A DNA stretch of 10,958 nt from JBBIVP01 sp037439705 [NCBI: bacterium] (GTDB taxonomy: Bacteria > JBBIVP01): the NCBI GenBank assembly GCA_037439705.1, contig JBBIVP010000060.1, forward strand, positions 1 to 10,958, read 5' to 3'. Made by a program: the position numbers and the translations under genes. The notes below the pieces were generated by a model. That model was not told the origin of the DNA and ran no database searches. It was given only the letters and a program-made list of their open reading frames with translations. Positions 1 to 10,958 of this stretch are shown in pieces. Each line of letters starts with the position of its first letter. Positions within the stretch are counted from its first letter, which is position 1.

Positions 1-55
1 ATATTAAAAAAGCGGACAGGATGATTATAGAAATTATTATTTTTATTACCTTCAT
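1..55 (-). CDS. Start of a secreted or membrane protein, truncated by window edge
   Basis: An ATG at 55-53 overlaps the TGA stop of the HIT gene in an ATGA junction and opens a frame that stays open to the window edge (18 codons). The visible residues begin MKVIKIIISI and continue with Ile/Leu-rich sequence to SAFLI. A short basic start followed by a hydrophobic stretch fits a signal peptide or an N-terminal membrane anchor. An AAGGAGG-like SD lies near the end of the HIT gene but unusually far from the ATG (about 12 nt). The four-base overlap suggests translational coupling and membership of the ispH-to-HIT operon. Too little is visible to name a family. Confidence 0.55.
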   Translation of the reverse strand, partial: MKVIKIIISIIILSAFLI

Positions 56-534
56 AATTTTTCAAATCCTCCTTTTAACAATCTGTATGTATCCTTTATG
101 TGCTGTGGAATAACCTTTGTATCTGCCAAAATTGGCATAAAATTGGTGTCACCACCCCATCTCGGGACAATGTGAATATGGATGTGTTCTTCAAGACCAG
201 CACCTGCTATTTTTCCAACATTTATTCCGATATTGAAGCCTTCCGGTTTCATTATTTTTTTCAGAACATTAACCGAATCTATAAGAGCGTCCATGAGCTC
301 TTTCATCTCTTCTTGAGAAAGAGTCTCAATATCTCTCTTATGCTGAAGCGGAGCCACCATAAGGTGTCCAGTGTTATATGGAAATCTGTTCATAATGACG
401 AGGACCATCTTATATTTCTTTAAAACAAGATTTTTTGAGGATGGTTTTTGGGATGCAGCAGTGCAAATAAAACATCCCCTTTCCTTCCCCTTGTAAATAT
501 ACTCCATTCTCCATGGCGCCCAGAGAATTTTCAA
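52..534 (-). CDS. HIT family nucleotide hydrolase/transferase (Ap4A-type)
   Basis: This 160-residue protein belongs to the histidine-triad superfamily, whose members cleave or transfer nucleoside phosphates (Ap4A, AMP-lysine and similar). The HxHxH signature is at residues 117-121 (HIHIH), with the middle His119 the expected nucleophile; H65 and the NTGHLMV segment near 54-60 also match the family. A CFIC motif (Cys21, Cys24) near the N-terminus probably binds zinc, as in COG0537-type members that begin with a similar LWAPWR sequence. The start is a TTG at 534. It is preceded by GAGGAG, 7 nt upstream and lying in the last codons and stop of the upstream phosphodiesterase gene, so the two genes are probably coupled. 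The exact substrate cannot be deduced from sequence. Confidence 0.9.
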   Translation of the reverse strand: MKILWAPWRMEYIYKGKERGCFICTAASQKPSSKNLVLKKYKMVLVIMNRFPYNTGHLMVAPLQHKRDIETLSQEEMKELMDALIDSVNVLKKIMKPEGFNIGINVGKIAGAGLEEHIHIHIVPRWGGDTNFMPILADTKVIPQHIKDTYRLLKGGFEKL

Positions 535-538
535 AAGA

Positions 539-1033
539 TTACTCCTCTATTTCTACTATTTCCGCCCGGGATTTTTCTCCTTCAAGAAAAAGATATGCTA
601 TGCTTCTTTTTCTGTTGAAAAATCCTGGAAAAGTGGCTCCCGGATTCAGCGTTAGGATATTTCCAACGATTTTCTTTTTTGGAACATGAGAATGCCCGTA
701 TATCAGACAATTTATGTTTTCATTCTCAAAAATTGGAAGAAGTTTTTCAGGAAAACCGAGGGGAGAACCCCATCCGTGAACAAGTCCTATTCTGAAGTTT
801 TCCAGACTAAACACCAGTTTCTCCGGAAGGGATTTTTTTGTATCAGAATCATCCATATTTCCGTGAACTGCATAAACCTTTTTATCTTTCCAGATCTCAA
901 GTATCTTGATGGAAATCAGGTCTCCAGCATGAACTATTATATCCACATCCTTCAAATACCTTTCGCATATCTTTTCAAGAGTACCATCTATTTCCTTTTT
1001 GTGCGTATCTGAAATAACCCCTATTTTTATCAT
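539..1033 (-). CDS. YfcE/MJ0936-type metallophosphoesterase
   Basis: This 164-residue protein is a compact calcineurin-like phosphodiesterase of the YfcE/MJ0936 family, soluble and probably cytoplasmic. The metal ligands are all present in order: D9 and H11 (SDTH), D38 (HAGD), N59 (HGNMD), H86 (VHGW), and H114 and H116 (GHSH). The family hydrolyses phosphodiesters such as bis-pNPP with Mn or Ni; the physiological substrate is generally unknown. The length is typical. The ATG at 1033 overlaps the HU gene stop in an ATGA junction, and only a weak SD (CAGGG) precedes it, so translation probably depends on coupling to HU. The HIT gene follows after 4 nt. A phosphodiesterase beside a HIT hydrolase may suggest nucleotide clean-up, but that is inference. 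Confidence 0.9.
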   Translation of the reverse strand: MIKIGVISDTHKKEIDGTLEKICERYLKDVDIIVHAGDLISIKILEIWKDKKVYAVHGNMDDSDTKKSLPEKLVFSLENFRIGLVHGWGSPLGFPEKLLPIFENENINCLIYGHSHVPKKKIVGNILTLNPGATFPGFFNRKRSIAYLFLEGEKSRAEIVEIEE

Positions 1034-1317
1034 TTAATGCCCTGAATCTTCTCCTTAATCTCTTTTCCTGCCTTAAAATGCACCGCGTTCCTTTCTGCCA
1101 CAGGGATTTTATCCTCTACATTCTTGGGATTTCTCACAATCCTTGCCCTTCTTTTTCTGGCTGTAAAATTTCCAAAATCCCTTATTTCCACCCGCTCTCC
1201 ATTTTTTATTGCAGAGGTAATGGCGTCAAGGATTATGTCAACCATAAGTTCCACATCCCTGGGTGGTATGTATGGAAATTTTTCCTTCAGTTCCCTTATC
1301 ACATCGCTCTTGTTCAT
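1030..1317 (-). CDS. HU/IHF family DNA-binding protein
   Basis: This is a 95-residue nucleoid protein of the HU/IHF family, which binds and bends DNA as a dimer. Visible features are the N-terminal helices (MNKSDVIREL onward), the GNF turn near 49-51, the basic beta-arm around 53-63, the RNP motif with the intercalating proline P64, and the C-terminal FKAGKEIKE helix. I chose the ATG at 1317 rather than the in-frame ATG at 1332, because the 15 nt between them are an almost ideal SD (AGGAGGT) rather than conserved protein sequence. Alpha/beta IHF and HU cannot be separated from this sequence alone; the position after rpsA and sppA resembles ihfB (himD) in Desulfobacterota and Proteobacteria. 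It overlaps the next gene by 4 nt. Confidence 0.92.
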   Translation of the reverse strand: MNKSDVIRELKEKFPYIPPRDVELMVDIILDAITSAIKNGERVEIRDFGNFTARKRRARIVRNPKNVEDKIPVAERNAVHFKAGKEIKEKIQGIK

Positions 1318-1322
1318 CCTGC

Positions 1323-1329
1323 ACCTCCT
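1323..1329 (-). promoter_or_regulatory. Strong Shine-Dalgarno of the HU gene
   Basis: AGGAGGT on the minus strand, with 6 nt between AGGAGG and the ATG at 1317. It overlaps the last base of the sppA stop codon and decides the HU start: it falls inside the first codons of the longer alternative frame that begins at 1332. Confidence 0.85.
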
Positions 1330-2198
1330 CATGGAAGGACCATTTTATAACTAAATCCTCCTTCCACTTTAAAATTTAAGATAGATTCCTCATCAAACCC
1401 CAGGATTTTTTTAAGAAACGAAACCCCCCTTCTCCGAGGTTTAACAATTTTTTCCATTTTAATGCCTGTGATTTTCTTCAATTCTTCTATTGCATCGTTC
1501 ATTGTCCCTATTGCATCAACAAGTCCATATTCCAAAGCACTTTCTCCAGTAAAAACCTTTCCATTTGCTACTTCATCAAGTACTTCTTTCGAAAGGTTCC
1601 TTCTTTCCTTCACCACATTTCTGAACTGCTGGTAGAGTTCATCAATAAGAGCCCGAAGGTATTTCTGCTCTTCTACATCCAGCTTTCTGAACGGAGAACC
1701 TGCGTCCTTGAACTTTCCGCTTTTAAATACCACAGGCTTTACCTTTATTGCCTCAAGCACCCCTTCAAGATTCATATATTCAAAAATAACACCGATGCTA
1801 CCGGTAAGTGTTCCTGGATTAGCAAATATCTTATTTGCTGCACAGGCTATATAATATCCTCCCGATGCTGAAATGTTTCCCATTGAGGCAATAACAGGTT
1901 TTTTCTGAGAGAGTTTCAGAACCTCCTGATAGATTTCCTGAACAGCACCAACTGACCCTCCTGGCGTTTCAAGACGGAGAAGAACTCCTTTTATAAAATC
2001 TGCTTTTTCAAAGAATCTGATATCCGAAAGATATTCTCTTGAAGAGTATATTGGTCCCTTTATTTCAATTAAACCAATGTTCCCAAATCTCCCTCTCAAC
2101 AAAATGAGAACAAGAAAACCCATAAAGATAAGAAAAATTGGTAAAATAATTAACAGAACCTTCAGAAAATTCCATTTTTGTGATGACCGATTATTCAT
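1329..2198 (-). CDS. sppA: Signal peptide peptidase SppA (S49 family)
   Basis: This inner-membrane serine protease of family S49 degrades cleaved signal peptides. From the ATG at 2198 it has 289 residues: one N-terminal membrane segment (about 11-34) and a single protease domain, so it is the short, B. subtilis-like form rather than the duplicated E. coli form. The catalytic serine lies in NISASGGYY (Ser112) and the base in KSGKFKD (Lys164). Their 52-residue spacing equals that of Ser147/Lys199 in B. subtilis SppA. The VFTGESALEYGLVD segment typical of the family follows. A TTG at 2213 could extend it by five residues, but the upstream AGAAGAAGA gives only a weak SD for either start. The start overlaps the rpsA end by 8 nt, and the stop abuts the SD of the HU gene. 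Confidence 0.93.
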   Translation of the reverse strand: MNNRSSQKWNFLKVLLIILPIFLIFMGFLVLILLRGRFGNIGLIEIKGPIYSSREYLSDIRFFEKADFIKGVLLRLETPGGSVGAVQEIYQEVLKLSQKKPVIASMGNISASGGYYIACAANKIFANPGTLTGSIGVIFEYMNLEGVLEAIKVKPVVFKSGKFKDAGSPFRKLDVEEQKYLRALIDELYQQFRNVVKERRNLSKEVLDEVANGKVFTGESALEYGLVDAIGTMNDAIEELKKITGIKMEKIVKPRRRGVSFLKKILGFDEESILNFKVEGGFSYKMVLP

Positions 2199-3864
2199 TC
2201 TTCTTCTTCTCAAATATATCCTTCATTACCTCACCCAATTTTACCCCTTTCTTACCACCCGTATATTTTTCCATAACTTCCTCTTCTTCCTTTTTCTGAA
2301 GAAGTTTTGGACTCAAAATAAGCTTCTTCTTCTCCTTATCAAAAGTGAGAACAACCGCCGAAATTTTATCGCCCACTTTATATGAATCCTTTATATTAGC
2401 TTCTCTTTTCAGGAAAAGTTCTCTTTTTGGAGCAAGTGCTTCAACTCCTTTTTCCACCTCAATGAAAATTCCAAAATCCGTTACAGTTTTTACGTGTCCT
2501 TCCACAACATCTCCAACCCTTATTCTTTCAGCTATTCTTTCCCATGGATCCATTTCCATCTGTTTTATTCCAACTCTTATACCCTTTCCATCTCCTTTTT
2601 CTCCAAGAACATACACATCTATTTCCTGTCCGACCTTAAATTCCTTTCTCGGGTCTTTCCTTTCATACCAGGAAATATCCTCTGCCATCATCTCTGCCTC
2701 AATTTTTTCATCAAGGGTCCGAAGGATGACAGAACTTCTTCTTGTTTTTACCACCTTCATTTTAACAATTGAACCTGGCGGATTTTTCTCAAGAAACTCC
2801 TGAGAAGGGCTTTTTTGAAGAGCCTTTATACTCAGAGAAATTCTTCTCTTTTCAGGCTGAAGGTCAAGAATAAGTGCTTCCACAGTTTCTTCCTCTTTTA
2901 ATACCTGAGAGGGCTTTTTAACAGAGGGGTCCCAGCTCAATTCAGAAATATGAACCATACCTTCAACTCCAGGTTCCAATTCTATAAATCCTCCAAAGGA
3001 TGTCAGAGAAATGACCTTTCCCTTTATTTTCTGCCCTTTTTTATATTTTTCTCCCACCAAAGTCCACGGATCCGGGATAAGTTGTTTTATCCCGAGTTTG
3101 ATTTTTTCCTCTTCCCTGTTGACCTCAATTACAACTCCCTTTACCGTCTGTCCCTTTCTCAAAATTTCGTGAGGTTTTTCTCTTCCCCATGTAATATCCC
3201 TTGCGGATACAAATCCTTCAATTCCACCGAGGTCAACAAATGCTCCAAAATTTTTAATTCTTTTTACCTCCCCTTTTACCACATCTCCTTCTTTGATTTT
3301 TTTCAGAAGGTCTTCCTTCTTCTTTTTAGCCTCCTCTTCCAATAACTGCCTTCTTGAAATAAGAATTTTCTTATTTTTTACGAAATCAATTATGTATGCT
3401 TCTATTGTTTTGTTCAAAAGTCTTTTTCTTCCATATTCATTATCGGTATCCGCCTCTTTGAAGAGCATAAATGCCATAATCCCAAAACCAAGGTCAACAG
3501 TGTAGCCCCTTTTTACAATTTCTTTTACAATCCCTTTCACCTTTTTTCTGGACTGGTAGCATTCCTCAAGGAAATCCCACTGTTTTATCTGTTGAGCCAT
3601 TGAATATGAAATCCGATAAAGCCCTGTTTGTTCCCTTCCGATTATTATGCCATCTAATTGGTCGCCTATTTTAACCTTTTTAAGCTCTAAAAATTGCTGA
3701 ATTTCGTCTTCTCCTATAACTCCCTCACATTTAAACCCCAGGTCAAGAAATATCTCATTATTGGACTTCCCGATCACCTCTCCCTTTATGAGAGAACCTA
3801 CTCTCGGCGGTCCATTTTCCGGGATGTAGCGATCAATTATTGCTTCTAACTTCTTTCCTTTCAT
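2191..3864 (-). CDS. rpsA: 30S ribosomal protein S1, six S1 domains
   Basis: This is a full-length S1, which binds mRNA on the 30S subunit and helps initiation on structured or SD-poor messages. From the ATG at 3864 it has 557 residues. Six OB-fold S1 repeats start near residues 22, 107, 193, 279, 365 and 450. Repeats 3, 4 and 6 are the most canonical (for example KNFGAFVDLGGIEGFV and TSFGGFIELEPGVEGMVHIS); repeats 1, 2 and 5 are more divergent, as in other S1 proteins. The KDP/DPW linker motifs are also typical. A GTG at 3873 would add three residues, but it sits inside the GAGGTG SD of the ATG. The gene overlaps the 3' end of ispH by 32 nt. In Clostridia, IspH and S1 are often fused; here they are separate but coupled. 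Confidence 0.95.
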   Translation of the reverse strand: MKGKKLEAIIDRYIPENGPPRVGSLIKGEVIGKSNNEIFLDLGFKCEGVIGEDEIQQFLELKKVKIGDQLDGIIIGREQTGLYRISYSMAQQIKQWDFLEECYQSRKKVKGIVKEIVKRGYTVDLGFGIMAFMLFKEADTDNEYGRKRLLNKTIEAYIIDFVKNKKILISRRQLLEEEAKKKKEDLLKKIKEGDVVKGEVKRIKNFGAFVDLGGIEGFVSARDITWGREKPHEILRKGQTVKGVVIEVNREEEKIKLGIKQLIPDPWTLVGEKYKKGQKIKGKVISLTSFGGFIELEPGVEGMVHISELSWDPSVKKPSQVLKEEETVEALILDLQPEKRRISLSIKALQKSPSQEFLEKNPPGSIVKMKVVKTRRSSVILRTLDEKIEAEMMAEDISWYERKDPRKEFKVGQEIDVYVLGEKGDGKGIRVGIKQMEMDPWERIAERIRVGDVVEGHVKTVTDFGIFIEVEKGVEALAPKRELFLKREANIKDSYKVGDKISAVVLTFDKEKKKLILSPKLLQKKEEEEVMEKYTGGKKGVKLGEVMKDIFEKKKNE

Positions 3865-4708
3865 TTCTTTCACCTCTTTTAGACCTGTATTTATTTATCT
3901 CATCTATAACCTCTTCCACCACCTCTTCAGGAGTTGATGTTCCTGAGGTTATAAACAAAAAATTCTTTCCTCCAAACCAACTTTTATCAATCTCCTTTGC
4001 ATTTTCAACATGATATACCATTTTGTTCACCTTCTTTACGAGTTCGAAAATCCTTCTTGTATTGGCACTATTTTTTCCACCTATTACAATAACACATTCA
4101 CTCTTTTTTGCAAGAAAAACCGCTTCCTTTTGCCTTTCCACGGTTTCACGACAGAGGGTATTAAATATCCTGACCTCTCTTCCCTTATCAGCAAGTGCTT
4201 TTGAAAATTCCCTGAAGGAATTAAGAGATGATGTGGTCTGAAAAACTACAGCTATTTTCTCACCCTTTATCTTCTCCGCCTCTTTTAGGTCCGAAATGAC
4301 GATGGAATTTTTACCCGCATAACTTTCAACCCCTTTCACTTCAGGATGTTCCTTATCACCCACGATTATAACAATGTATCCTTCATTGTTTAATTTTTCA
4401 GCCAGTTTTTGAAGCCTCCCCACAATAGGACATGTGGCATCTATAAGGGTTATTTTTTTGCCCAAAAGGATTTCTCTTTCTTCTTTGAGGCATCCATGAG
4501 ATGGAATCACAACTGTCATCCCATCCTTTATTTCTTCAAGATTTCTTGTTATTTTGATGCCTCTGCTTTGAAGGTTTTCCACCACCTTCCTGTTATGAAT
4601 AAGTGGACCGAGCATAATAGTTTGAGGCGAAGCTCCATTTTCTACCAGTTTCATAGCTCTTTTAACCCCTGAACAGAATCCTATCCATTTCCCTGTTATT
4701 ATCTTCAT
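3833..4708 (-). CDS. ispH: 4-hydroxy-3-methylbut-2-enyl diphosphate reductase IspH
   Basis: IspH (LytB) is the iron-sulphur enzyme that makes IPP and DMAPP in the last step of the MEP isoprenoid pathway. The 291 residues carry all key positions: cluster cysteines C12 (GFCSGV), C93 (DATCP) and C186 (NTLCRET); substrate histidines H38, H71 and H121; the catalytic Glu in HPEVKG (E123); the QTT motif (157-159); NSAN at 213-216; and TSTP near 257-260. Length and N-terminus match the family, so the ATG at 4708 is firm. No SD precedes it, and a good promoter ends 11 nt upstream, which suggests a leaderless or nearly leaderless message. The basic, Arg/Glu-rich tail overlaps the rpsA start by 32 nt. 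It is the first gene of a unit of at least seven genes. Confidence 0.96.
   Translation of the reverse strand: MKIITGKWIGFCSGVKRAMKLVENGASPQTIMLGPLIHNRKVVENLQSRGIKITRNLEEIKDGMTVVIPSHGCLKEEREILLGKKITLIDATCPIVGRLQKLAEKLNNEGYIVIIVGDKEHPEVKGVESYAGKNSIVISDLKEAEKIKGEKIAVVFQTTSSLNSFREFSKALADKGREVRIFNTLCRETVERQKEAVFLAKKSECVIVIGGKNSANTRRIFELVKKVNKMVYHVENAKEIDKSWFGGKNFLFITSGTSTPEEVVEEVIDEINKYRSKRGERNERKEVRSNN
3871..3876 (-). promoter_or_regulatory. Shine-Dalgarno of rpsA inside ispH
   Basis: GAGGTG on the minus strand, 6 nt before the ATG at 3864 and inside the ispH coding region. It supports the ATG over the GTG at 3873, and implies that S1 synthesis is tied to translation of ispH. Confidence 0.75.
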
Positions 4709-4719
4709 AAAGAAGTTTT

Positions 4720-4748
4720 ATTATAATCATTAAATTTTGAAATTTCAA
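4720..4748 (-). promoter_or_regulatory. Sigma70-like promoter of ispH operon
   Basis: On the minus strand a -35 box TTGAAA (4748-4743) is followed by a 17-nt spacer and a perfect TATAAT (4725-4720). The -10 ends only 11 nt before the ispH ATG, so the start point would fall about 4-6 nt upstream of the ATG, leaving no room for an SD. Promoter and ATG were read directly; usage is inferred. Confidence 0.75.
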
Positions 4749-4749
4749 A
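4736..4749. promoter_or_regulatory. 14-bp perfect palindrome over ispH -35 box
   Basis: TTTGAAATTTCAAA is a perfect 14-bp palindrome that covers the whole -35 hexamer of the ispH promoter. This is where a repressor dimer would act. In AT-rich intergenic DNA such a palindrome can also arise by chance, and I recognise no known regulator site in it. Confidence 0.35.
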
Positions 4750-4759
4750 TTTTATGCAA

Positions 4760-4779
4760 TGTGTGTAGACAAACACACA
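4760..4779 (-). other. Hairpin between hemD and ispH
   Basis: A perfect 7-bp inverted repeat, TGTGTGT and ACACACA separated by 6 nt, starts 5 nt after the hemD stop. No T run follows it on the minus strand, so it is not a standard intrinsic terminator. It may mark the 3' end of the hem operon mRNA, be a weak pause site, or be a protein-binding site upstream of the ispH promoter. Confidence 0.45.
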
Positions 4780-4784
4780 GAATA

Positions 4785-5543
4785 CTACATCTTATTGAAA
4801 AATTTTGAAATCTCTTTGACAAGAGACTCAGCTGTGTATTTCCTTGGCATAATAGAGGGCTCCAAACCATAATCAGAAAGGGCTTCTCTTGTTATAGGAC
4901 CTATAACCGCTAACGGGACCTTTAAAATTTTCTTAATTCCTTTAATGCTCATAAAATTCTTAACGGTTGATGGGCTTGTGAAAACAACCATGTCAATTCC
5001 CTTTTTCATTTCTTCATAAACCCTTTTCTCAAATCCCCTTGGTTTTACGGTTCTATATATGGGGAGTAGATGAACTTCTGCTCCCATATTTTTCAATTCC
5101 TCTGGAAGAACCTCCCTTGCAACCTCTGCTCTCGGTATGAGAACATTTTTGCCCTTCATCTTGATCTTCCTTAATTCTTCAACGAGTGATTCAGCAACAT
5201 ATTTCTTTGGGAGGACATCTGGAAAAATGCCCCTTTTATTCAAACTTTTATAAGTTTTCTCTCCTATTACACCTATTTTCAGATGAGCAAGGTTTCTTAT
5301 ATCAATCCTTTTCTCAAGAAGTATTTCAAAAAAGAAATCAACAGCGTTGGCACTGGTAAAAATGAGCCAATCATATTTTTTGAGATTTTTTATTGTTTCT
5401 TCAATTTCAGGGCTTCTTATCCTTTTAAGTTCAATCGCTGGAACCACAACTGGGTCGCCTCCTTCCTTTCTTATGTAATCCGCCATCTCCTCCGCTCCAT
5501 CAAGGGGGCGTGTAATAAGAATTCTTTTTCCTTTAATTCCCAT
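4785..5543 (-). CDS. hemD: Uroporphyrinogen-III synthase
   Basis: HemD closes and isomerises hydroxymethylbilane to uroporphyrinogen III, the branch point to haem, sirohaem and corrinoids. From the ATG at 5543 it has 252 residues, a usual length. Sequence similarity within the family is weak, but the bilobed pattern is clear: ILITRP at 9-13, IFTSANAV at 61-68, TSPSTV at 189-194 and IGPITREA at 214-221. A near-repeat, YVAESLVEEL in the first half and YTAESLVKEI in the second, reflects the family's two-lobed symmetry. The frame extends to a TTG at 5579, but the first 12 residues look unlike the family, and only the ATG has a (weak) GAGAGA upstream. It overlaps hemC by 11 nt, ends in TAG and is the last gene of its operon. 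Confidence 0.88.
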   Translation of the reverse strand: MGIKGKRILITRPLDGAEEMADYIRKEGGDPVVVPAIELKRIRSPEIEETIKNLKKYDWLIFTSANAVDFFFEILLEKRIDIRNLAHLKIGVIGEKTYKSLNKRGIFPDVLPKKYVAESLVEELRKIKMKGKNVLIPRAEVAREVLPEELKNMGAEVHLLPIYRTVKPRGFEKRVYEEMKKGIDMVVFTSPSTVKNFMSIKGIKKILKVPLAVIGPITREALSDYGLEPSIMPRKYTAESLVKEISKFFNKM

Positions 5544-6450
5544 ATATCTCTCTGAGTATCTCTCTTCCACCCATATCAAGAATTTTTTCGGCCATTTTCC
5601 TCCCGAGACTTTCCGGTTCCTCTTTACTCCCTTCCATCTTTATCTGAATGAACCTCTTCGCTTCAAGATCTGAAACAAAAGAAATCATTTCAATTTTTCC
5701 GTCTTTCAGGGAAGCATTGACTCCAATTGGAACCTGACATCCAGCTCCTATCACTTTAAGAAAAGCTCTCTCAGAAGTTATAGCGAGAAGCGTATCTTCA
5801 TCTGAAATTTCCTCAACCATCTTTATTATCTCCCTGTCCTTCTCCCTGCATTCAATTGCTATTACTCCCTGTCCTCCGCATGGCACGAATAAATCTGCGG
5901 GAAGAACTTCTGTAGCAAGACCTTCCCATCCCATTCTTATGAGTCCGGCATGCGAAACTATGATACCATCGTAAAGACCTTCTCTCATTTTTCTTATTCT
6001 CGTATCAAGATTTCCCCTCAAATCATGAGAAACAAGATATGGAAAATGCCTTTTCATTATTACCTTTCTCCTCAAACTGCTCGTTCCTATCTTGCCTTCC
6101 TTTAATGAAAATATGGATTTTGATTTATCCGAAATAAAAACATCAAAGGGACTTTCCCTTTTTAGAAACCCTGCAAGAATAAGCCCATCGGGAAGCTCTG
6201 AAGGCATATCTTTTAGGCTGTGAACCGCAAGGTCTATTTCTCTTTTTAAAAGAGCTTCTTCTATTTCCTTTACGAATATTCCTTTCGCCCCTATTTTCGA
6301 TAATGGGACATCGGTAAGTTTGTCGCCCTTTGTCTTGATTTTCACGACTTCTACTGAAATATTAGTATAAGCCTTCAAAAGGAGGTTCTTAAAAATCTCC
6401 ACCTGCCTCAGAGCAAGCTGGCTACCCCTTGTTCCTATTCTCAATTTCAT
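5533..6450 (-). CDS. hemC: Hydroxymethylbilane synthase (porphobilinogen deaminase)
   Basis: HemC joins four porphobilinogens into hydroxymethylbilane using a covalent dipyrromethane cofactor. From the ATG at 6450 the protein has 305 residues. The diagnostic parts are all present: LRIGTRGSQLAL at the start, HSLKDMP with catalytic Asp81 near 77-83, GTSSLRR (122-128), the LRGNLDTR segment (144-151), CGGQGV (191-196) and the cofactor cysteine in GAGCQVPIGV (C238). An in-frame ATG lies at 6456 and the frame opens at 6483, but GGAG is correctly spaced only for 6450, and conserved sequence starts there. It overlaps hemA by 29 nt and hemD by 11 nt, which suggests coordinated translation of successive enzymes of the pathway. 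Confidence 0.96.
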   Translation of the reverse strand: MKLRIGTRGSQLALRQVEIFKNLLLKAYTNISVEVVKIKTKGDKLTDVPLSKIGAKGIFVKEIEEALLKREIDLAVHSLKDMPSELPDGLILAGFLKRESPFDVFISDKSKSIFSLKEGKIGTSSLRRKVIMKRHFPYLVSHDLRGNLDTRIRKMREGLYDGIIVSHAGLIRMGWEGLATEVLPADLFVPCGGQGVIAIECREKDREIIKMVEEISDEDTLLAITSERAFLKVIGAGCQVPIGVNASLKDGKIEMISFVSDLEAKRFIQIKMEGSKEEPESLGRKMAEKILDMGGREILREIYGN

Positions 6451-7720
6451 CTTCATCTCCAAAAATGGTAAAAAAGGTTTCAATAAAAGATGATTCTCCG
6501 TTCCTCGCCATTTCCTTTATCCGGGTTACCGGCTTGTGGAGAATTTTTTTTACTACATTAACAGAAAAATCTTCTATCGCCCTTTTCTGATGTCCAGAAA
6601 TATTGCCGAGCATCCTGAAAAGTTCTTCCAGTTCCGTCCGTCTTATTGAATCTGCTGTTTCATAAACCATCCGAAGAAGCGGACCGATTCTCTCTTCCTT
6701 TACCCTTCTAAAAAATTTCCCCAGTTCTTCCTCCACAATTGCCTCACCCTTTATTGCTTCTTCTCGCCTTTTCTTTATGTTTCTATCCACTATTCGCTGA
6801 AGATCATCTATGTGATAGAGGTATACATTCTCAAGGGTTCCAACCTCAGGGTCTATATTTCTTGGAAGAGAAATATCAATAAAGAAAATGGGATTTCCCT
6901 TTCTCTTCTTCATGACATTTTTTACATCATTTTTCGTTATCAAATAATGAGGAGCTGCGGAAGCACATAAAACTATGTCCACATCTTTAAGACCCCTGTA
7001 AAGGTCCTTAAAAGGAATGACCTCTCCAGAATAAATTGAACAAAGCTCTTCAGCTCGTTCAATCGTTCTGCTTGTTATGTAAATTTTTGATATCCCTCTG
7101 GAAATAAAGCTTTTTATTGCAATCTCTCCCATCTCCCCTGTTCCTATCACGATTACCTTTCTCTTTGAGAGGTCTCCAAAGATGCTCTCCGCCAGTTCCA
7201 CTGCCTGGGAACTTATAGAATTTGGATTCTCGCCCAAAGCAGTTTCCCTTCTAATTCTCTTCGCGACAAAAAATGCTCTTTCAAAAACCATGCTCAAATT
7301 TTTACCAACGAATCCCTTTTTTAAAGAAACCTCATACGCTGACTTTACCTGACCTGTTATCTGGGGCTCACCAATAACCATTGAATCAAGAGAAGATGTA
7401 ACCCTGAATATGTGTTTTATCGCATCCCTTCCTAAAAAATTGTAAAAGTATCCTTTTTCGAGATGAAGACCTATCCTTTCTTCGTTGATTTTTATCAGGT
7501 CATCTATTATCTTCTCCGGATTGGTTCTGTATATTATGAACTCCACCCTGTTGCATGTGGAAAGAATTACACATTCTTCAACCTTAAGTCTCTCTTTTAT
7601 GGTGGAAAGGAGTTTATCCTCTTCCTGTTTTTTAAGCGCGAGCGCTTCTCTTACATCAAGAGGAGAAGTTCTGAAGCTCGTTCCATGAACGAGAAGATTT
7701 TCTTCTTCAAATGAAATCAT
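6422..7720 (-). CDS. hemA: Glutamyl-tRNA reductase
   Basis: HemA reduces glutamyl-tRNA with NADPH to glutamate-1-semialdehyde, the first committed step of the C5 tetrapyrrole pathway. The 432 residues show the catalytic domain with the nucleophilic Cys56 in LSTCNRVE, the MVIGEPQITGQVK segment (114-126), an NADPH Rossmann motif VIGTGEMG (191-198), the SRT/ERAEEL region after it, and a long helical C-terminal dimerisation domain (about 300-415). The ATG at 7720 has GGAGG upstream, which lies in the final codons of ccsA; the two genes overlap by 14 nt. The stop is TAG. HemL and HemB, needed between HemA and HemC, are not in this window. Confidence 0.97.
   Translation of the reverse strand: MISFEEENLLVHGTSFRTSPLDVREALALKKQEEDKLLSTIKERLKVEECVILSTCNRVEFIIYRTNPEKIIDDLIKINEERIGLHLEKGYFYNFLGRDAIKHIFRVTSSLDSMVIGEPQITGQVKSAYEVSLKKGFVGKNLSMVFERAFFVAKRIRRETALGENPNSISSQAVELAESIFGDLSKRKVIVIGTGEMGEIAIKSFISRGISKIYITSRTIERAEELCSIYSGEVIPFKDLYRGLKDVDIVLCASAAPHYLITKNDVKNVMKKRKGNPIFFIDISLPRNIDPEVGTLENVYLYHIDDLQRIVDRNIKKRREEAIKGEAIVEEELGKFFRRVKEERIGPLLRMVYETADSIRRTELEELFRMLGNISGHQKRAIEDFSVNVVKKILHKPVTRIKEMARNGESSFIETFFTIFGDEDEIENRNKG
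6457..6460 (-). promoter_or_regulatory. Shine-Dalgarno of hemC inside hemA
   Basis: GGAG on the minus strand within the last codons of hemA, 6 nt before the ATG at 6450. It lies directly against the alternative ATG at 6456, too close to serve it, and so decides the start. Confidence 0.65.
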
Positions 7721-8507
7721 GATATCCTCCGGGAATGAGCTTTCTTCCGAAGAATGCTATTAAAAAAAGTATAAAACCTATTACCGAAAGAATTGCGCTT
7801 TTCCTTCCTTTCCAGCCAGCAATCAGTCTCAAATGAAGATAAGATGCATAAATGATCCAGACAAGGAGTGCGAGAACTTCTTTGGGATCCCAATTCCATA
7901 CACTTCCCCACAGCCTTTCTGACCAGAGGCTCCCTGTGAGAATTCCAAGGGTTATAAATGTAAATCCGAATTGAACAGTTCTGTAATTCATGAAATCAAG
8001 TTCAACAAGGGAAGGAATTCTTTTGGGACTCCATCTTAAAATTTTTAACTTTATGTTTCTTTCCTGGAGAAGGTAAAATAACCCTGCAGCAAAGGATAAA
8101 AAGAAAAAGACATAACCTGTTATTGAAAATGTCACATGGATTGGAAAAAGAAGCGTGTTAAGTTCAGGGCGAAAAACTCCTCTCTGAGGAAGCGAGATGG
8201 AAGCAATGTAAAAAAGAATAACCGCGGGAACGGTTATGTATCCGAGAGCCGGAACGAGCCCTCTTATCTGATATCCAATAAATACACAGCCCAGAAGAAT
8301 TGAAAAAAAGGACATTACACCGCTCATGTAATAAAGGGGAATGGAAGAAGGGGAGGTTATTCCTGTAATGAATTTTAATGTGTGAATTAAAAATCCAAGG
8401 CACAAAAATGAAAAACCTGTTTTCAAAAAAATCCTCAGATTGAAAAATAAATGAAGGAGGTAAAAAAGGAGCGACATTGAGTATGTTCCAAGAATAAGAA
8501 ACTTCAT
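7707..8507 (-). CDS. ccsA: Cytochrome c assembly protein, CcsA/HemX family
   Basis: This 266-residue polytopic membrane protein of the CcmC/CcsA/HemX family handles haem. About eight hydrophobic segments are visible (near 2-22, 31-48, 60-78, 86-104, 122-147, 178-197, 208-228 and 238-254). The tryptophan-rich signature WGSVWNWDPKE at 200-210 is the family haem-binding motif, and H42, H124 and H225 are candidate axial ligands. In system II, CcsA works with ResB/CcsB to export haem and attach it to c-type apocytochromes; no ResB is in the window. HemX, a relative next to hemA in Bacillus, instead controls HemA level, so that role remains possible. The ATG at 8507 has no SD and sits 7 nt from a -10 box. 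It heads the hem operon. Confidence 0.88.
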   Translation of the reverse strand: MKFLILGTYSMSLLFYLLHLFFNLRIFLKTGFSFLCLGFLIHTLKFITGITSPSSIPLYYMSGVMSFFSILLGCVFIGYQIRGLVPALGYITVPAVILFYIASISLPQRGVFRPELNTLLFPIHVTFSITGYVFFFLSFAAGLFYLLQERNIKLKILRWSPKRIPSLVELDFMNYRTVQFGFTFITLGILTGSLWSERLWGSVWNWDPKEVLALLVWIIYASYLHLRLIAGWKGRKSAILSVIGFILFLIAFFGRKLIPGGYHDFI

Positions 8508-8514
8508 TTGTTTT

Positions 8515-8542
8515 ATTCTATTTCAAAAAACATCTGCTTCAA
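8515..8542 (-). promoter_or_regulatory. Promoter of the ccsA-hemACD operon
   Basis: On the minus strand TTGAAG (8542-8537), a 16-nt spacer and TAGAAT (8520-8515). Only 7 nt separate the -10 box from the ccsA ATG, so transcription would start at or within a base or two of the start codon. It lies in the 51-nt gap after mscS, where I see no terminator hairpin. Confidence 0.6.
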
Positions 8543-8558
8543 CCATCAGCCAATAAAT

Positions 8559-9584
8559 CTATTCTTTTTTCTCCCGCAAATATACTGTCCTTATGGGGAA
8601 CGGGATTTCAATCCCTTCTTCTTTAAATCTTTTGAAAATCCTTTTCCTCAACTCGTGCTGAACGAGATACTGGTCAACAAACTCCCTCACATGACATATG
8701 AGTGTAAAATTAATGGAACTCTCACCAAACCCAGGAATCAACCTTACTAATGGTTCGGGAGAACCCAATAATCCGGGCACTTCACCAACTGCTTTTTTAA
8801 CCTCTTCAATAAGTATTCGTTCAACGAGTTCAGGGTCAGAAGAGTAACTAACACTTATGGGAATCAAAACGGCCATCCTTTTTTCCGGAAGATAATAATT
8901 GGTCACAATGCTCTGAGCAAGTTTGCTGTTAGGAATTATAACCAGATTGTTGGGAAGCATTCTTATCCGGGTTGTCCTCCATGTAATATCCTCAACATAT
9001 CCCTCTTCCCCGGTTTCAAGTTTTATAAAATCTCCGACCCTTATGGATTTTTCTGCAAGAATATGAATCCCGGCAAAAAGATTTGCCAGTGTATCCTGAA
9101 GGGCAAGAGCGACTGCAAGACCTCCAACCCCAAGAGCTGTAATAAGAGGAGTTATAGAGATACCCAGAATAGAAAGTATTATAAGAATTCCTATAATGAT
9201 TATTGTTCCCTTCAATATACCGTAGACAAGACCTGTTGTGGGGAGGGGCAATTCAAATTTACTGAGGTAATTTCTGAATACATCACCTGAAAAATTTGCA
9301 GTAGCAATTGTAATGGAAAATACTACAAGGACATGGAGCAACTTGTTGAAATAAAAAATATATCTCTGTGGAAGTTCAGAAACAGACATTCCTATGTAAA
9401 GTCCTATGGCAATGCATAAATAAAAGGATGGCACTTTTAAAGCCCTGATTACAATATCGTCCAGTTTTGTATCTGTCCTTTCCGCCCACTTCTTAAAAAA
9501 CCTGAAACCAATATTTCTCACCATCAAGATAAAAAACACAGACGCAAGCGTTACAATGGTCGGAATGAGTATCTTTTTCATCAT
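8559..9584 (-). CDS. Small-conductance mechanosensitive channel (MscS family)
   Basis: MscS channels open under membrane tension and release solutes on osmotic downshock. The 341 residues contain about five membrane segments (near 5-25, 53-70, 82-98, 119-140 and 145-172), two more than E. coli MscS. The pore helix is the Gly/Ala-rich GVGGLAVALALQD stretch (152-164) followed by TLANLFAG. The beta domain follows with VGDFIKL, the EGYVEDITWRTTRIR segment and IPNSKL (217-222), then the alpha/beta C-terminal domain. The ATG at 9584 is followed directly by a second ATG, and an AAAGGAGG SD is well placed for both. The stop is TAG. It appears to be a single-gene unit, with its own promoter and the hem operon promoter just downstream. 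Confidence 0.94.
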   Translation of the reverse strand: MMKKILIPTIVTLASVFFILMVRNIGFRFFKKWAERTDTKLDDIVIRALKVPSFYLCIAIGLYIGMSVSELPQRYIFYFNKLLHVLVVFSITIATANFSGDVFRNYLSKFELPLPTTGLVYGILKGTIIIIGILIILSILGISITPLITALGVGGLAVALALQDTLANLFAGIHILAEKSIRVGDFIKLETGEEGYVEDITWRTTRIRMLPNNLVIIPNSKLAQSIVTNYYLPEKRMAVLIPISVSYSSDPELVERILIEEVKKAVGEVPGLLGSPEPLVRLIPGFGESSINFTLICHVREFVDQYLVQHELRKRIFKRFKEEGIEIPFPIRTVYLREKKE

Positions 9585-9587
9585 CTT

Positions 9588-9595
9588 TCCTCCTT
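9588..9595 (-). promoter_or_regulatory. Strong Shine-Dalgarno of mscS
   Basis: AAAGGAGG on the minus strand, 3 nt before the first ATG (9584) and 6 nt before the second (9581), so the second ATG may be preferred. It shows that this genome does use canonical SD sites, unlike the SD-less first genes ispH and ccsA. Confidence 0.8.
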
Positions 9596-9602
9596 TTTAA
9601 TA

Positions 9603-9630
9603 ATTTTAAATGAAAAACATTTTCTTGCAA
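9603..9630 (-). promoter_or_regulatory. Probable promoter of mscS
   Basis: On the minus strand TTGCAA (9630-9625), a 16-nt spacer and TAAAAT (9608-9603). The -10 ends 18 nt before the ATG, which leaves room for a short leader holding the SD. Confidence 0.5.
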
Positions 9631-9656
9631 TCCTCGGACTTTCCTTAAATGTAAAC

Positions 9657-9685
9657 TTGATGAATCTTTTGCATTTCGGTAATAT
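9657..9685 (+). promoter_or_regulatory. Probable promoter of tRNA-Ser
   Basis: TTGATG (9657-9662), a 17-nt spacer and TAATAT (9680-9685). The -10 ends 6 nt before the first base of the mature tRNA, so the transcript could begin at the mature 5' end. A perfect TATAAT also lies at 9685-9690, but it is one base from the tRNA and has no partner -35 at the right distance. Confidence 0.5.
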
Positions 9686-9691
9686 ATAATC

Positions 9692-9781
9692 GGAAGGGTG
9701 GCCGAGTGGTTTAAGGCGGCGGTCTTGAAAACCGCTTCTCCCGCAAGGGAGACGGGGGTTCGAATCCCTCCCCTTCCGCCA
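9692..9781 (+). tRNA. tRNA-Ser, anticodon UGA
   Basis: A 90-nt class II tRNA with the 3' CCA encoded. The acceptor stem pairs GGAAGGG (9692-9698) with CCCTTCC (9771-9777), the discriminator is G (9778) and CCA follows. The anticodon stem GCGGT/ACCGC encloses the loop CTTGAAA with anticodon TGA at 9726-9728, which reads UCN serine codons. The long variable arm, with a CTCCC/GGGAG stem and GCAA loop, is typical of serine tRNAs, and the T arm holds GTTCGAATC. It is the only complete gene on the plus strand and diverges from mscS. I see no clear intrinsic terminator after it. Confidence 0.97.
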
Positions 9782-9838
9782 TTTCCATTTTATAAGAACC
9801 TCTCCTCCCCTTTGATGATGTGTTTTATATTTCTATTT

Positions 9839-10373
9839 TTACCTTCCGAGCAGTTCCCTGTGCCTTTTCTCAGCCCTTTCCTCCATTTTTTCAAGGATTC
9901 TACCGAGGTTCTCCTAGGTCTTCTGAATTTCTCCAAAGAACTCCATCGCCTTTGTAAGAATTATCTCAAGCCTTCTATTACCCTCTTCAATGAACAATCT
10001 TGTTTCTCCCCTTCCATCTTCTGTTATCCTCTCAAGCCTCTTAGATCCATCATCCGTTACCTTTTCAAGCCTCTTTAATCCATCTTCTGTTATCTTCTCA
10101 AGCCTTTTAAATCCCTCTTCTGTTATCCTCTCAAGCCTCTTATTCCCTTCGTCAATCATCCTGTTGGTTTCCGCCCGCCACTCTTTTATCATTTCTTTCA
10201 TTCCTTTCGTCTCTTCTCTCATTTCTCTTATCAATTTTTCTGACCTCCATCCTAAATAAAGGCTAATTCCTCCAAGGATAAGCCCGAGAATTGTAAACAA
10301 AATTGCTGAACTAAAAGGCAGAAAAAACCCAGCTTAAGCCAATCGCCCCTGCTATAAGGATTGCTAACCACAT
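9839..10373 (-). pseudogene. Broken gene for membrane-anchored hendecad coiled-coil protein
   Basis: An ATG at 10373 starts a hydrophobic frame (MWLAILIAGA onward) that ends after 20 codons at TAG (10313-10311). Dropping one T from the T6 run (10327-10322) would join it to the next frame, which continues a membrane segment (FTILGLILGGISLYLGW), then a charged coiled coil with four 11-residue repeats, and stops at TAG (9916-9914). Past that TAG the frame stays open for 24 codons, ending with ILEKMEERAEKRHRELLGR and TAA; this is the same charged helical style, so the TAG is probably a mutated CAG. The repaired product would be 177 residues. As it stands, an intact 128-residue frame uses a TTG at 10300 without SD. 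The function is unknown; short proteins of this build occur in several thermophiles. Programmed frameshifting or sequence error are alternatives. Confidence 0.6.
10016..10147 (-). repeat. Four tandem 33-bp units coding an 11-residue repeat
   Basis: Four consecutive 33-bp units encode GNKRLERITEE, GFKRLEKITED, GLKRLEKVTDD and GSKRLERITED; a fifth, divergent copy (GNRRLEI) follows after a gap. An 11-residue period with fixed Leu and Ile positions is a hendecad, the pattern of an extended, near-straight coiled coil. The DNA copies differ by only a few bases each, so the array is open to copy-number change by slippage. Confidence 0.85.
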
Positions 10374-10379
10374 AATAAA

Positions 10380-10408
10380 ATTTTAACCGTAAAATTTTCA
10401 AAAGTCAA
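10380..10408 (-). promoter_or_regulatory. Promoter of the coiled-coil gene
   Basis: On the minus strand TTGACT (10408-10403), a 17-nt spacer and TAAAAT (10385-10380), ending 6 nt before the ATG at 10373. This supports the upstream ATG as the original start and again predicts a leaderless message. Confidence 0.6.
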
Positions 10409-10593
10409 TAAATGTAACAAATTTCAAGATTAATATAAATTAACGAAAAATTTTAAAATATATTTTCTCATTTTTATCATTTATTTTGCCGAGTTAAAAG
10501 AAAATGAGTTATGAATCCTTTTTAAACCATTCCTCTCAAAAATCCATTTCTAATAAAAGGGACACAAAATTATTGACAAATCCCAAAATAAAA
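10409..10593. other. AT-rich divergent intergenic region
   Basis: Non-coding, strongly AT-rich DNA between two divergent promoters. It holds an 8-bp inverted repeat (CTCATTTT at 10467-10474 and AAAATGAG at 10501-10508) with a 26-nt spacer, too long for a stable terminator. A consensus-like TTGACA at 10573-10578 has no matching -10 box. I see no RNA gene or small open reading frame with support. Confidence 0.5.
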
Positions 10594-10622
10594 TTGAAAA
10601 ATCATTAAAAGACGAGTAAAGT
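10594..10622 (+). promoter_or_regulatory. Promoter of the plus-strand helical-repeat gene
   Basis: TTGAAA (10594-10599), a 17-nt spacer and TAAAGT (10617-10622), ending 7 nt before the ATG at 10630. The -10 is imperfect, but the spacing is ideal, and there is no SD between it and the ATG. Confidence 0.5.
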
Positions 10623-10629
10623 TATTTTT

Positions 10630-10958
10630 ATGGAGAAGGAAGATGTGTTTCTGAAAGAATTTACGGAATGTGCAAAAGCGATATGGGATGGAAGAATTGA
10701 TGATGCATTAAAAAGCGCAAAATTTTGTTTTGAAAAAAATCCTCATTCCAGAAGTGTTCTCAAATTCCTCCTTTATTCCTTAAAGAGGAAGGCGAAAAAA
10801 GAGGAATATTATGAATTTTTAAAAGAGATAAAAGAAAAGTCCGGAGAAAAAAACAGAATTCTCGTGATACTTGAAATGGCACGGACATCCTTTGAATTAA
10901 AAAAGTATGAGGAATGCCTTCAACTCTGTGAAGAGTTTCTTTCTTATAACCTTCCATC
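10630..10958 (+). CDS. Alpha-helical, possibly TPR-like protein, truncated by window edge
   Basis: An ATG at 10630 opens a frame that stays open to the window edge (109 complete codons). The protein begins MEKEDVFLKEFTECAKAIWD and is soluble-looking and helical. Segments such as AIWDGRIDDALKSAKFCFEKNP (about 17-38) and ARTSFELKKYEECLQLCEEFL (about 84-104) have the small-Ala, Tyr/Asp-turn and helix-loop-helix spacing of tetratricopeptide repeats, which act as protein-binding scaffolds. Codon use, with many AAA, GAA and TTT codons, matches the neighbours. No SD precedes the ATG; a promoter ends 7 nt upstream. It is transcribed away from the broken coiled-coil gene. TPR identity is inferred from pattern only and the partner is unknown. 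Confidence 0.65.
   Translation, partial: MEKEDVFLKEFTECAKAIWDGRIDDALKSAKFCFEKNPHSRSVLKFLLYSLKRKAKKEEYYEFLKEIKEKSGEKNRILVILEMARTSFELKKYEECLQLCEEFLSYNLP

Follow-up and report, generated by a model that had tools for sequence, protein, structure and literature searches.

The genes ccsA (a cytochrome c assembly protein) and ispH lie on the 10,958-base contig JBBIVP010000060.1 of the bacterium JBBIVP01 sp037439705 (the entire stretch analysed, referred to as the window; guanine-plus-cytosine (GC) content 37.6%), and both probably start on messenger RNA (mRNA) whose leader is absent or ultrashort, transcribed from promoters that abut the ATG, as far as the arrangement of signals in the DNA can tell. 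Ahead of these two genes, a disrupted coiled-coil gene, and a plus-strand gene for a helical protein, promoter-like sequences stand a few nucleotides (nt) from start codons whose upstream frames are closed and which lack a Shine-Dalgarno (SD) sequence. A wider proposal, that in this AT-rich lineage most transcript-first genes are leaderless or near-leaderless from full -35/-10 promoters, with SD initiation kept for internal genes and a smaller share of the first genes, is more tentative and is rated slightly below an even chance.

Promoters Close to Start Codons

The window was scanned for sigma70-like -35/-10 hexamers scored out of 12, and a near promoter was defined as one scoring at least 9/12 at 5–12 nt before the start codon. 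Such promoters precede ispH, ccsA, the coiled-coil gene, and the plus-strand gene (Table 1), with exactly the hexamers, spacers, and -10-to-ATG distances (11, 7, 6, and 7 nt, respectively) reported in an earlier note on this DNA. All four genes start with ATG (4/4), and in each an in-frame stop lies 12–24 nt 5' of that ATG with no ATG, GTG, or TTG in between (4/4), so that none of these start codons can be moved upstream. The first T of the TAnnnT motif falls 12 nt before the start in the coiled-coil gene and 13 nt before it in both ccsA and the plus-strand gene, which places three of the four within the range of approximately 10–13 bp typical of TA-led genes; the first T of the ispH TATAAT, at 17 nt, is outside this range.

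The strength of SD sequences was expressed as the energy of the duplex with an assumed anti-SD tail, which may not be that of the host. On this scale ispH, ccsA, the coiled-coil gene, and the plus-strand gene give -0.1, -0.9, -2.9, and -2.5 kcal/mol, in agreement with the earlier claim that all four (4/4) are devoid of an SD, provided, for the plus-strand gene, that ATG 10630 is its start. The six genes that had been described as carrying one do so, with duplexes from -8.5 to -16.0 kcal/mol: mscS (-11.6), HU (-16.0), rpsA (-11.7), hemA (-9.5), HIT from TTG 534 (-8.6), and hemC (-8.5); energies were also computed for alternative starts of hemC (6456) and HIT (507), which were excluded from the counts. 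Five of the eight internal genes therefore have a strong SD (-8.5 to -16.0 kcal/mol), and the weak ones, hemD (-3.6), yfcE (-3.1), and sppA (-2.9 kcal/mol), each overlap the preceding gene.

The sample comprises one window with five transcript-first genes (coiled-coil, plus-strand, mscS, ccsA, and ispH), whose position as first genes of units is predicted. Along the run from HIT to mscS, neighbours overlap or are separated by no more than 11 nt, with the exception of hemD-ispH (76 nt) and mscS-ccsA (51 nt), and because of these two gaps in an otherwise tight series two units would naturally begin at ispH and ccsA. The proposal of the earlier note, leaderless initiation for first genes and SD for internal ones, fits the window in outline, but does not extend to mscS, a first gene with an SD, or to the three internal genes in which the SD is weak.

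In the mechanism envisaged, the main sigma factor would bind the -35 and -10 boxes, the latter separated from the ATG by 6–7 nt (ccsA and the remnant ATG of the coiled-coil gene) or, in ispH, by 11 nt, and transcription would begin at the ATG or within about 5 nt of it. The resulting leader would be absent or ultrashort, with no room for an SD, and the 5'-terminal AUG would be used by ribosomes, probably as intact 70S particles, without SD pairing. Downstream genes of the putative ccsA and ispH transcripts would be initiated by SD or through translational coupling where they overlap the gene before them.

Table 1. Features of the window relevant to initiation, with their positions.
Feature	Position	Strand	Remarks
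ispH promoter	4720..4748	minus	TTGAAA-17-TATAAT; -10 ends 11 nt before ATG 4708; 11/12, top score in window
ccsA promoter	8515..8542	minus	TTGAAG-16-TAGAAT; -10 ends 7 nt before ATG 8507; 9/12
Coiled-coil frame promoter	10380..10408	minus	TTGACT-17-TAAAAT; -10 ends 6 nt before ATG 10373; 10/12
Plus-strand gene promoter	10594..10622	plus	TTGAAA-17-TAAAGT; -10 ends 7 nt before ATG 10630; 9/12
mscS, contrast case	9585..9630	minus	TTGCAA-16-TAAAAT; -10 ends 18 nt before ATG 9584; SD AAGGAGG 9589-9595
ispH	3833..4708	minus	ATG, no SD; in-frame TAA at -12
ccsA/ccsB (cytochrome c assembly protein)	7707..8507	minus	TIGR03144 E 5.4e-47, PF01578; ATG, no SD; in-frame TGA at -18
Disrupted coiled-coil gene	9914..10373	minus	ATG 10373 frame ends after 20 codons
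Helical protein gene	10630..10958	plus	runs off window; ATG 10630 without SD, or GTG 10645 (codon 6)
rpsA, sppA, HU, yfcE, HIT	52..3864	minus	3' of ispH; probable members of ispH unit
hemA, hemC, hemD	4785..7720	minus	3' of ccsA; probable members of ccsA unit
HIT, yfcE, HU, sppA, rpsA, ispH, hemD, hemC, hemA, ccsA, mscS		minus	
tRNA-Ser		plus	

Comparison with Shuffled Sequences and Control Plasmids

A chance origin of the four near promoters is unlikely. Each 60-nt upstream region was subjected to 4000 dinucleotide shuffles, and promoters of at least 9/12 at 5–12 nt were counted, which gave single-gene P values of 0.041 (coiled-coil), 0.031 (plus-strand), 0.012 (mscS), 0.028 (ccsA), and 0.059 (ispH). 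At least four near promoters among five genes correspond to P = 4.8e-6, and at least three among four, upon exclusion of the disrupted coiled-coil gene, to P = 1.0e-4, all of these values being optimistic in that the 5–12 nt range was set after seeing the data.

The same scan was applied to plasmids from other bacteria, using script-called open reading frames (ORFs) of at least 80 codons whose first start codon is ATG and which have an in-frame stop within 30 nt; genes without a same-strand neighbour closer than 45 nt were regarded as transcript-first. Approximately 3.7–7.5 kb each of pTT27, MP1, pBM400, and the Persephonella plasmid fell outside the scan, and genes located at stretch edges dropped out of the counts. 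Near promoters at 5–12 nt were found for 0/67 first genes of Ligilactobacillus pMP118, 0/15 of Priestia pBM400, 0/11 of the Persephonella plasmid, and 1/18 of Aquifex ece1, compared with 3/4 in the window when called automatically and 4/5 once the coiled-coil ATG is included manually. Against the two AT-rich Firmicute plasmids combined, the Fisher test yields P = 2.2e-6 for 4/5 versus 0/82 and P = 3.9e-5 for 3/4 versus 0/82. The promoter rule does detect promoter-like sites in pMP118, since 20/67 of its first genes have one at 13–44 nt. For SD-less first genes alone, the window has 4/4 (one added by hand) versus 0/25 in the Firmicute plasmids (P = 4.2e-5) and 1/36 in all four control plasmids (P = 5.5e-5); the 4/4 mixes by hand two definitions of SD, a four-base match and a duplex energy.

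When score, distance range, and start filter were varied, the window exceeded every control at all settings but one, a score of at least 10 at 5–8 nt. With a score of at least 8 at 3–14 nt, hits rose to 4/67 in pMP118, 1/15 in pBM400, and 3/18 in Aquifex ece1, with 0/11 in the Persephonella plasmid, for which looser start filters gave 1/13 or 1/14 at score 9 and 5–12 nt. At a score of at least 10, the window retains 2/5 at 5–12 nt and 1/5 at 5–8 nt, versus 0/111 in the controls. Reducing the window to ccsA, ispH, and mscS leaves 2/3 versus 0/82 (P = 8e-4).

A -10 box spans -12 to -7, which implies a 6-nt spacing if the A of the ATG is the transcription start. In Thermus pTT27, from a phylum in which leaderless expression has been published, the TAnnnT motif peaks at exactly 6 nt (4/25 first genes and 4/18 others). 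This spacing agrees with those of 6 nt in the coiled-coil frame and 7 nt in both ccsA and the plus-strand gene. Aquifex ece1 has the motif scattered broadly over 7–13 nt. Under the rule that includes a -35 box, the GC-rich controls pTT27 and MP1 gave near promoters in 0/25 and 0/26 first genes, respectively, so that leaderless genes in GC-rich DNA escape this rule.

Individual Genes

The cleanest of the four cases is ccsA, which is best read as initiating with no leader or almost none. Its status as a first gene rests on the 51-nt gap to mscS, in which no terminator-like site was found and the predicted fold is no better than that of shuffled sequences.

For ispH, the placement of the ATG is supported by family models that align from the first or second residue (NF000907 over residues 1–286 and TIGR00216 over residues 2–273). 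A leader of 4–5 nt, too short for an SD, is predicted, so that ultrashort-leader is a better label here than leaderless and constitutes the best reading. The closest solved relative of the protein is 3dnf, the Aquifex enzyme, a similarity that does not assign the lineage. On the 5' side of the gene (4732-4779, minus strand) lies a hairpin-forming TGTGTGT...ACACACA repeat, followed by the palindrome-like AAATTTGAAATTTCAAAATTT that encloses the -35 box; the hairpin, between hemD and ispH, occupies 4760-4779, and the fold of the region is modestly better than in shuffles (z -1.67). The repeat and the palindrome are a possible terminator and operator. At its other end, ispH overlaps rpsA, the start of which falls 32 nt inside the ispH 3' end (3833-3864, minus strand). 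NF000907, the NCBI model of an IspH-S1 fusion, has below-cut-off matches to both genes, and for this reason the two resemble the IspH-S1 arrangement in unfused form.

No Pfam match was found in the 109 residues present of the plus-strand protein. Its leaderless status is ambiguous: the gene may instead start at GTG 10645 behind an SD, in which case its leader would be short and SD-led, closely resembling the one predicted for mscS. In addition, a second promoter-like site 27 nt ahead of ATG 10630, TTGACA-18-AAAAAT (10/12; 10573-10602, plus strand), could give rise to a leadered transcript.

The coiled-coil gene contains repeats of the type RLEKITEDG. Its coiled coil and an N-terminal hydrophobic stretch are encoded in the next frame from ATG 10373, and another stop lies at 9914. 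The locus is a pseudogene, a gene that starts elsewhere, or a product of assembly errors. The contrast case mscS has a predicted leader of about 12 nt, with barely enough room for its strong SD.

Evidence Against and Alternative Explanations

Several observations weigh against leaderless or ultrashort-leader initiation, or limit how far it can be generalised. Among the genes themselves, mscS is a first gene that nonetheless has an SD, ccsA may share a transcript with mscS, and the 11 nt of ispH exceeds the usual 6–7, with pyrimidines as its likely start bases. The leaderless reading is weak for the coiled-coil gene, which is disrupted and has an uncertain true start, and in the plus-strand gene the GTG at codon 6 is preceded by GGAG (10632-10635)/AAGGA inside the predicted transcript (-6.4 kcal/mol). 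Strict pruning thus leaves two intact, unambiguous genes, ccsA and ispH (2/2 versus 0/25, P = 0.0028), and three of the eight internal genes have no strong SD. The controls are plasmids rather than chromosomes, and the positive ones are thin. In the two Aquificota plasmids a near promoter precedes 1/29 first genes, despite the Aquificae being reported as rich in leaderless genes (20.7–32.4% in 2/5 genomes, according to Zheng et al., PMC3160421). Deinococcus MP1 lacks a distinct TAnnnT peak at 6 nt: the motif stands there in 2/26 first genes, a number equalled at each of 9, 11, and 12 nt and exceeded at 27 nt (3 genes), and in 1/12 other genes. This slightly lowers confidence in leaderless initiation and raises that in a non-SD leadered alternative. 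Finally, the genome and viral contigs scanned contained no close relatives or homologous loci and so provide no support from conservation. The scan of genome contigs for relatives returned one locus, from a Chloroflexi bin (38% identity, GC 54%), the upstream ORFs of which are unlike those of the window and the contig of which ends inside hemA; it gave no qualifying rows in the promoter scan, a first pass with smaller stretches. A search of 41 genomes around this locus produced a single weak ispH match, and the viral contigs scanned contained no relative of the window.

The strongest alternative, rated fairly unlikely, is non-SD initiation on leadered mRNA, in which the true promoters are more distant (that of ccsA would be inside mscS or upstream of it), the AT-rich region provides an unstructured, S1-assisted start, and the near promoters are matches by chance. 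The upstream 60-nt regions of the four genes are indeed only 17–27% GC, chance matches are common (38 promoter-like sites in the window versus 24.9 in shuffles, standard deviation 5.5), and the lack of a terminator-like site or a better-than-shuffled fold between mscS and ccsA is in line with a promoter farther upstream. PMC5397173 cautions against simply attributing an AT-rich bias at -20 to -10 to leaderless promoters; S1 sites may be responsible for it. The window encodes S1 at full length (TIGR00717, residues 24–521 against model positions 17–514 of 516, below the model cut-off), which suits this alternative and by itself does not discriminate between initiation readings. On the other hand, the shuffles that gave P = 4.8e-6 for 4/5 preserve AT-richness, the AT-rich plasmids of two SD-using genera have no near promoter in 82 first genes or in 25 SD-less ones, and the ispH promoter, at 11/12, is the highest-scoring in the window.

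It is improbable that the apparent absence of SD sequences reflects misread starts, with some genes beginning further inside and having short leaders in which the SD lies 3' of the transcription start. mscS is predicted to have such a leader, the plus-strand GTG with its GGAG/AAGGA provides a candidate, and codon 19 of ispH is an ATG with a duplex energy of -6.5. An internal start is nevertheless very unlikely for ispH, whose family models align from residues well before codon 19, and unlikely for ccsA, in which the SD at codon 11 is weak (-3.3) and a start there would be expected to cut the first hydrophobic segment.

Relation to Known Systems and Significance

Promoters abutting the start codon have been published for many bacteria, and neither this layout nor the division between first and internal genes is new. 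Zheng et al. 2011 (PMC3160421) recognised leaderless genes in 207/953 bacterial genomes from a TA-like signal some 12 bp ahead of the start codon, and state that such signals at approximately 10–12 bp most probably mean leaderless genes. Three genes of the window resemble these TA-led genes, with TAnnnT in the corresponding place (first T at 12, 13, and 13 nt) and no SD, whereas ispH (17 nt) differs, as does the evidence, which here comes from one window rather than genome-wide enrichment. For Deinococcus radiodurans, PMC12340547 describes experiments in which -10 boxes adjoining ORFs drive leaderless genes; Deinococcus-Thermus and the window share, alongside SD genes, ORFs with a -10 box only a few bp upstream, which there yields leaderless mRNA, whereas the boxes here are AT-rich with a recognisable -35 and transcription is predicted only. 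In mycobacteria, a 5'-terminal ATG or GTG is necessary and sufficient for leaderless genes according to PMC4633059, a start codon usage shared by the window (ATG in 4/4), although starts were mapped there and are predicted here, and ispH would have no 5'-terminal ATG.

The principle of leaderless initiation is already established, and what could be new is the lineage, the window being a plausible further example of a known arrangement. Such usage has so far been best documented in Deinococcus-Thermus and Actinobacteria. A narrow term search of the literature, which is not proof of absence, found no paper joining leaderless initiation with metagenome-assembled candidate phyla, and a similar narrow search found none, by title, on leaderless initiation in uncultured lineages. 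With start codons that cannot be moved upstream, ccsA and ispH are two usable cases. If the pattern holds genome-wide, this would be one more lineage with routine leaderless initiation, in which SD-based gene finders may misplace starts.

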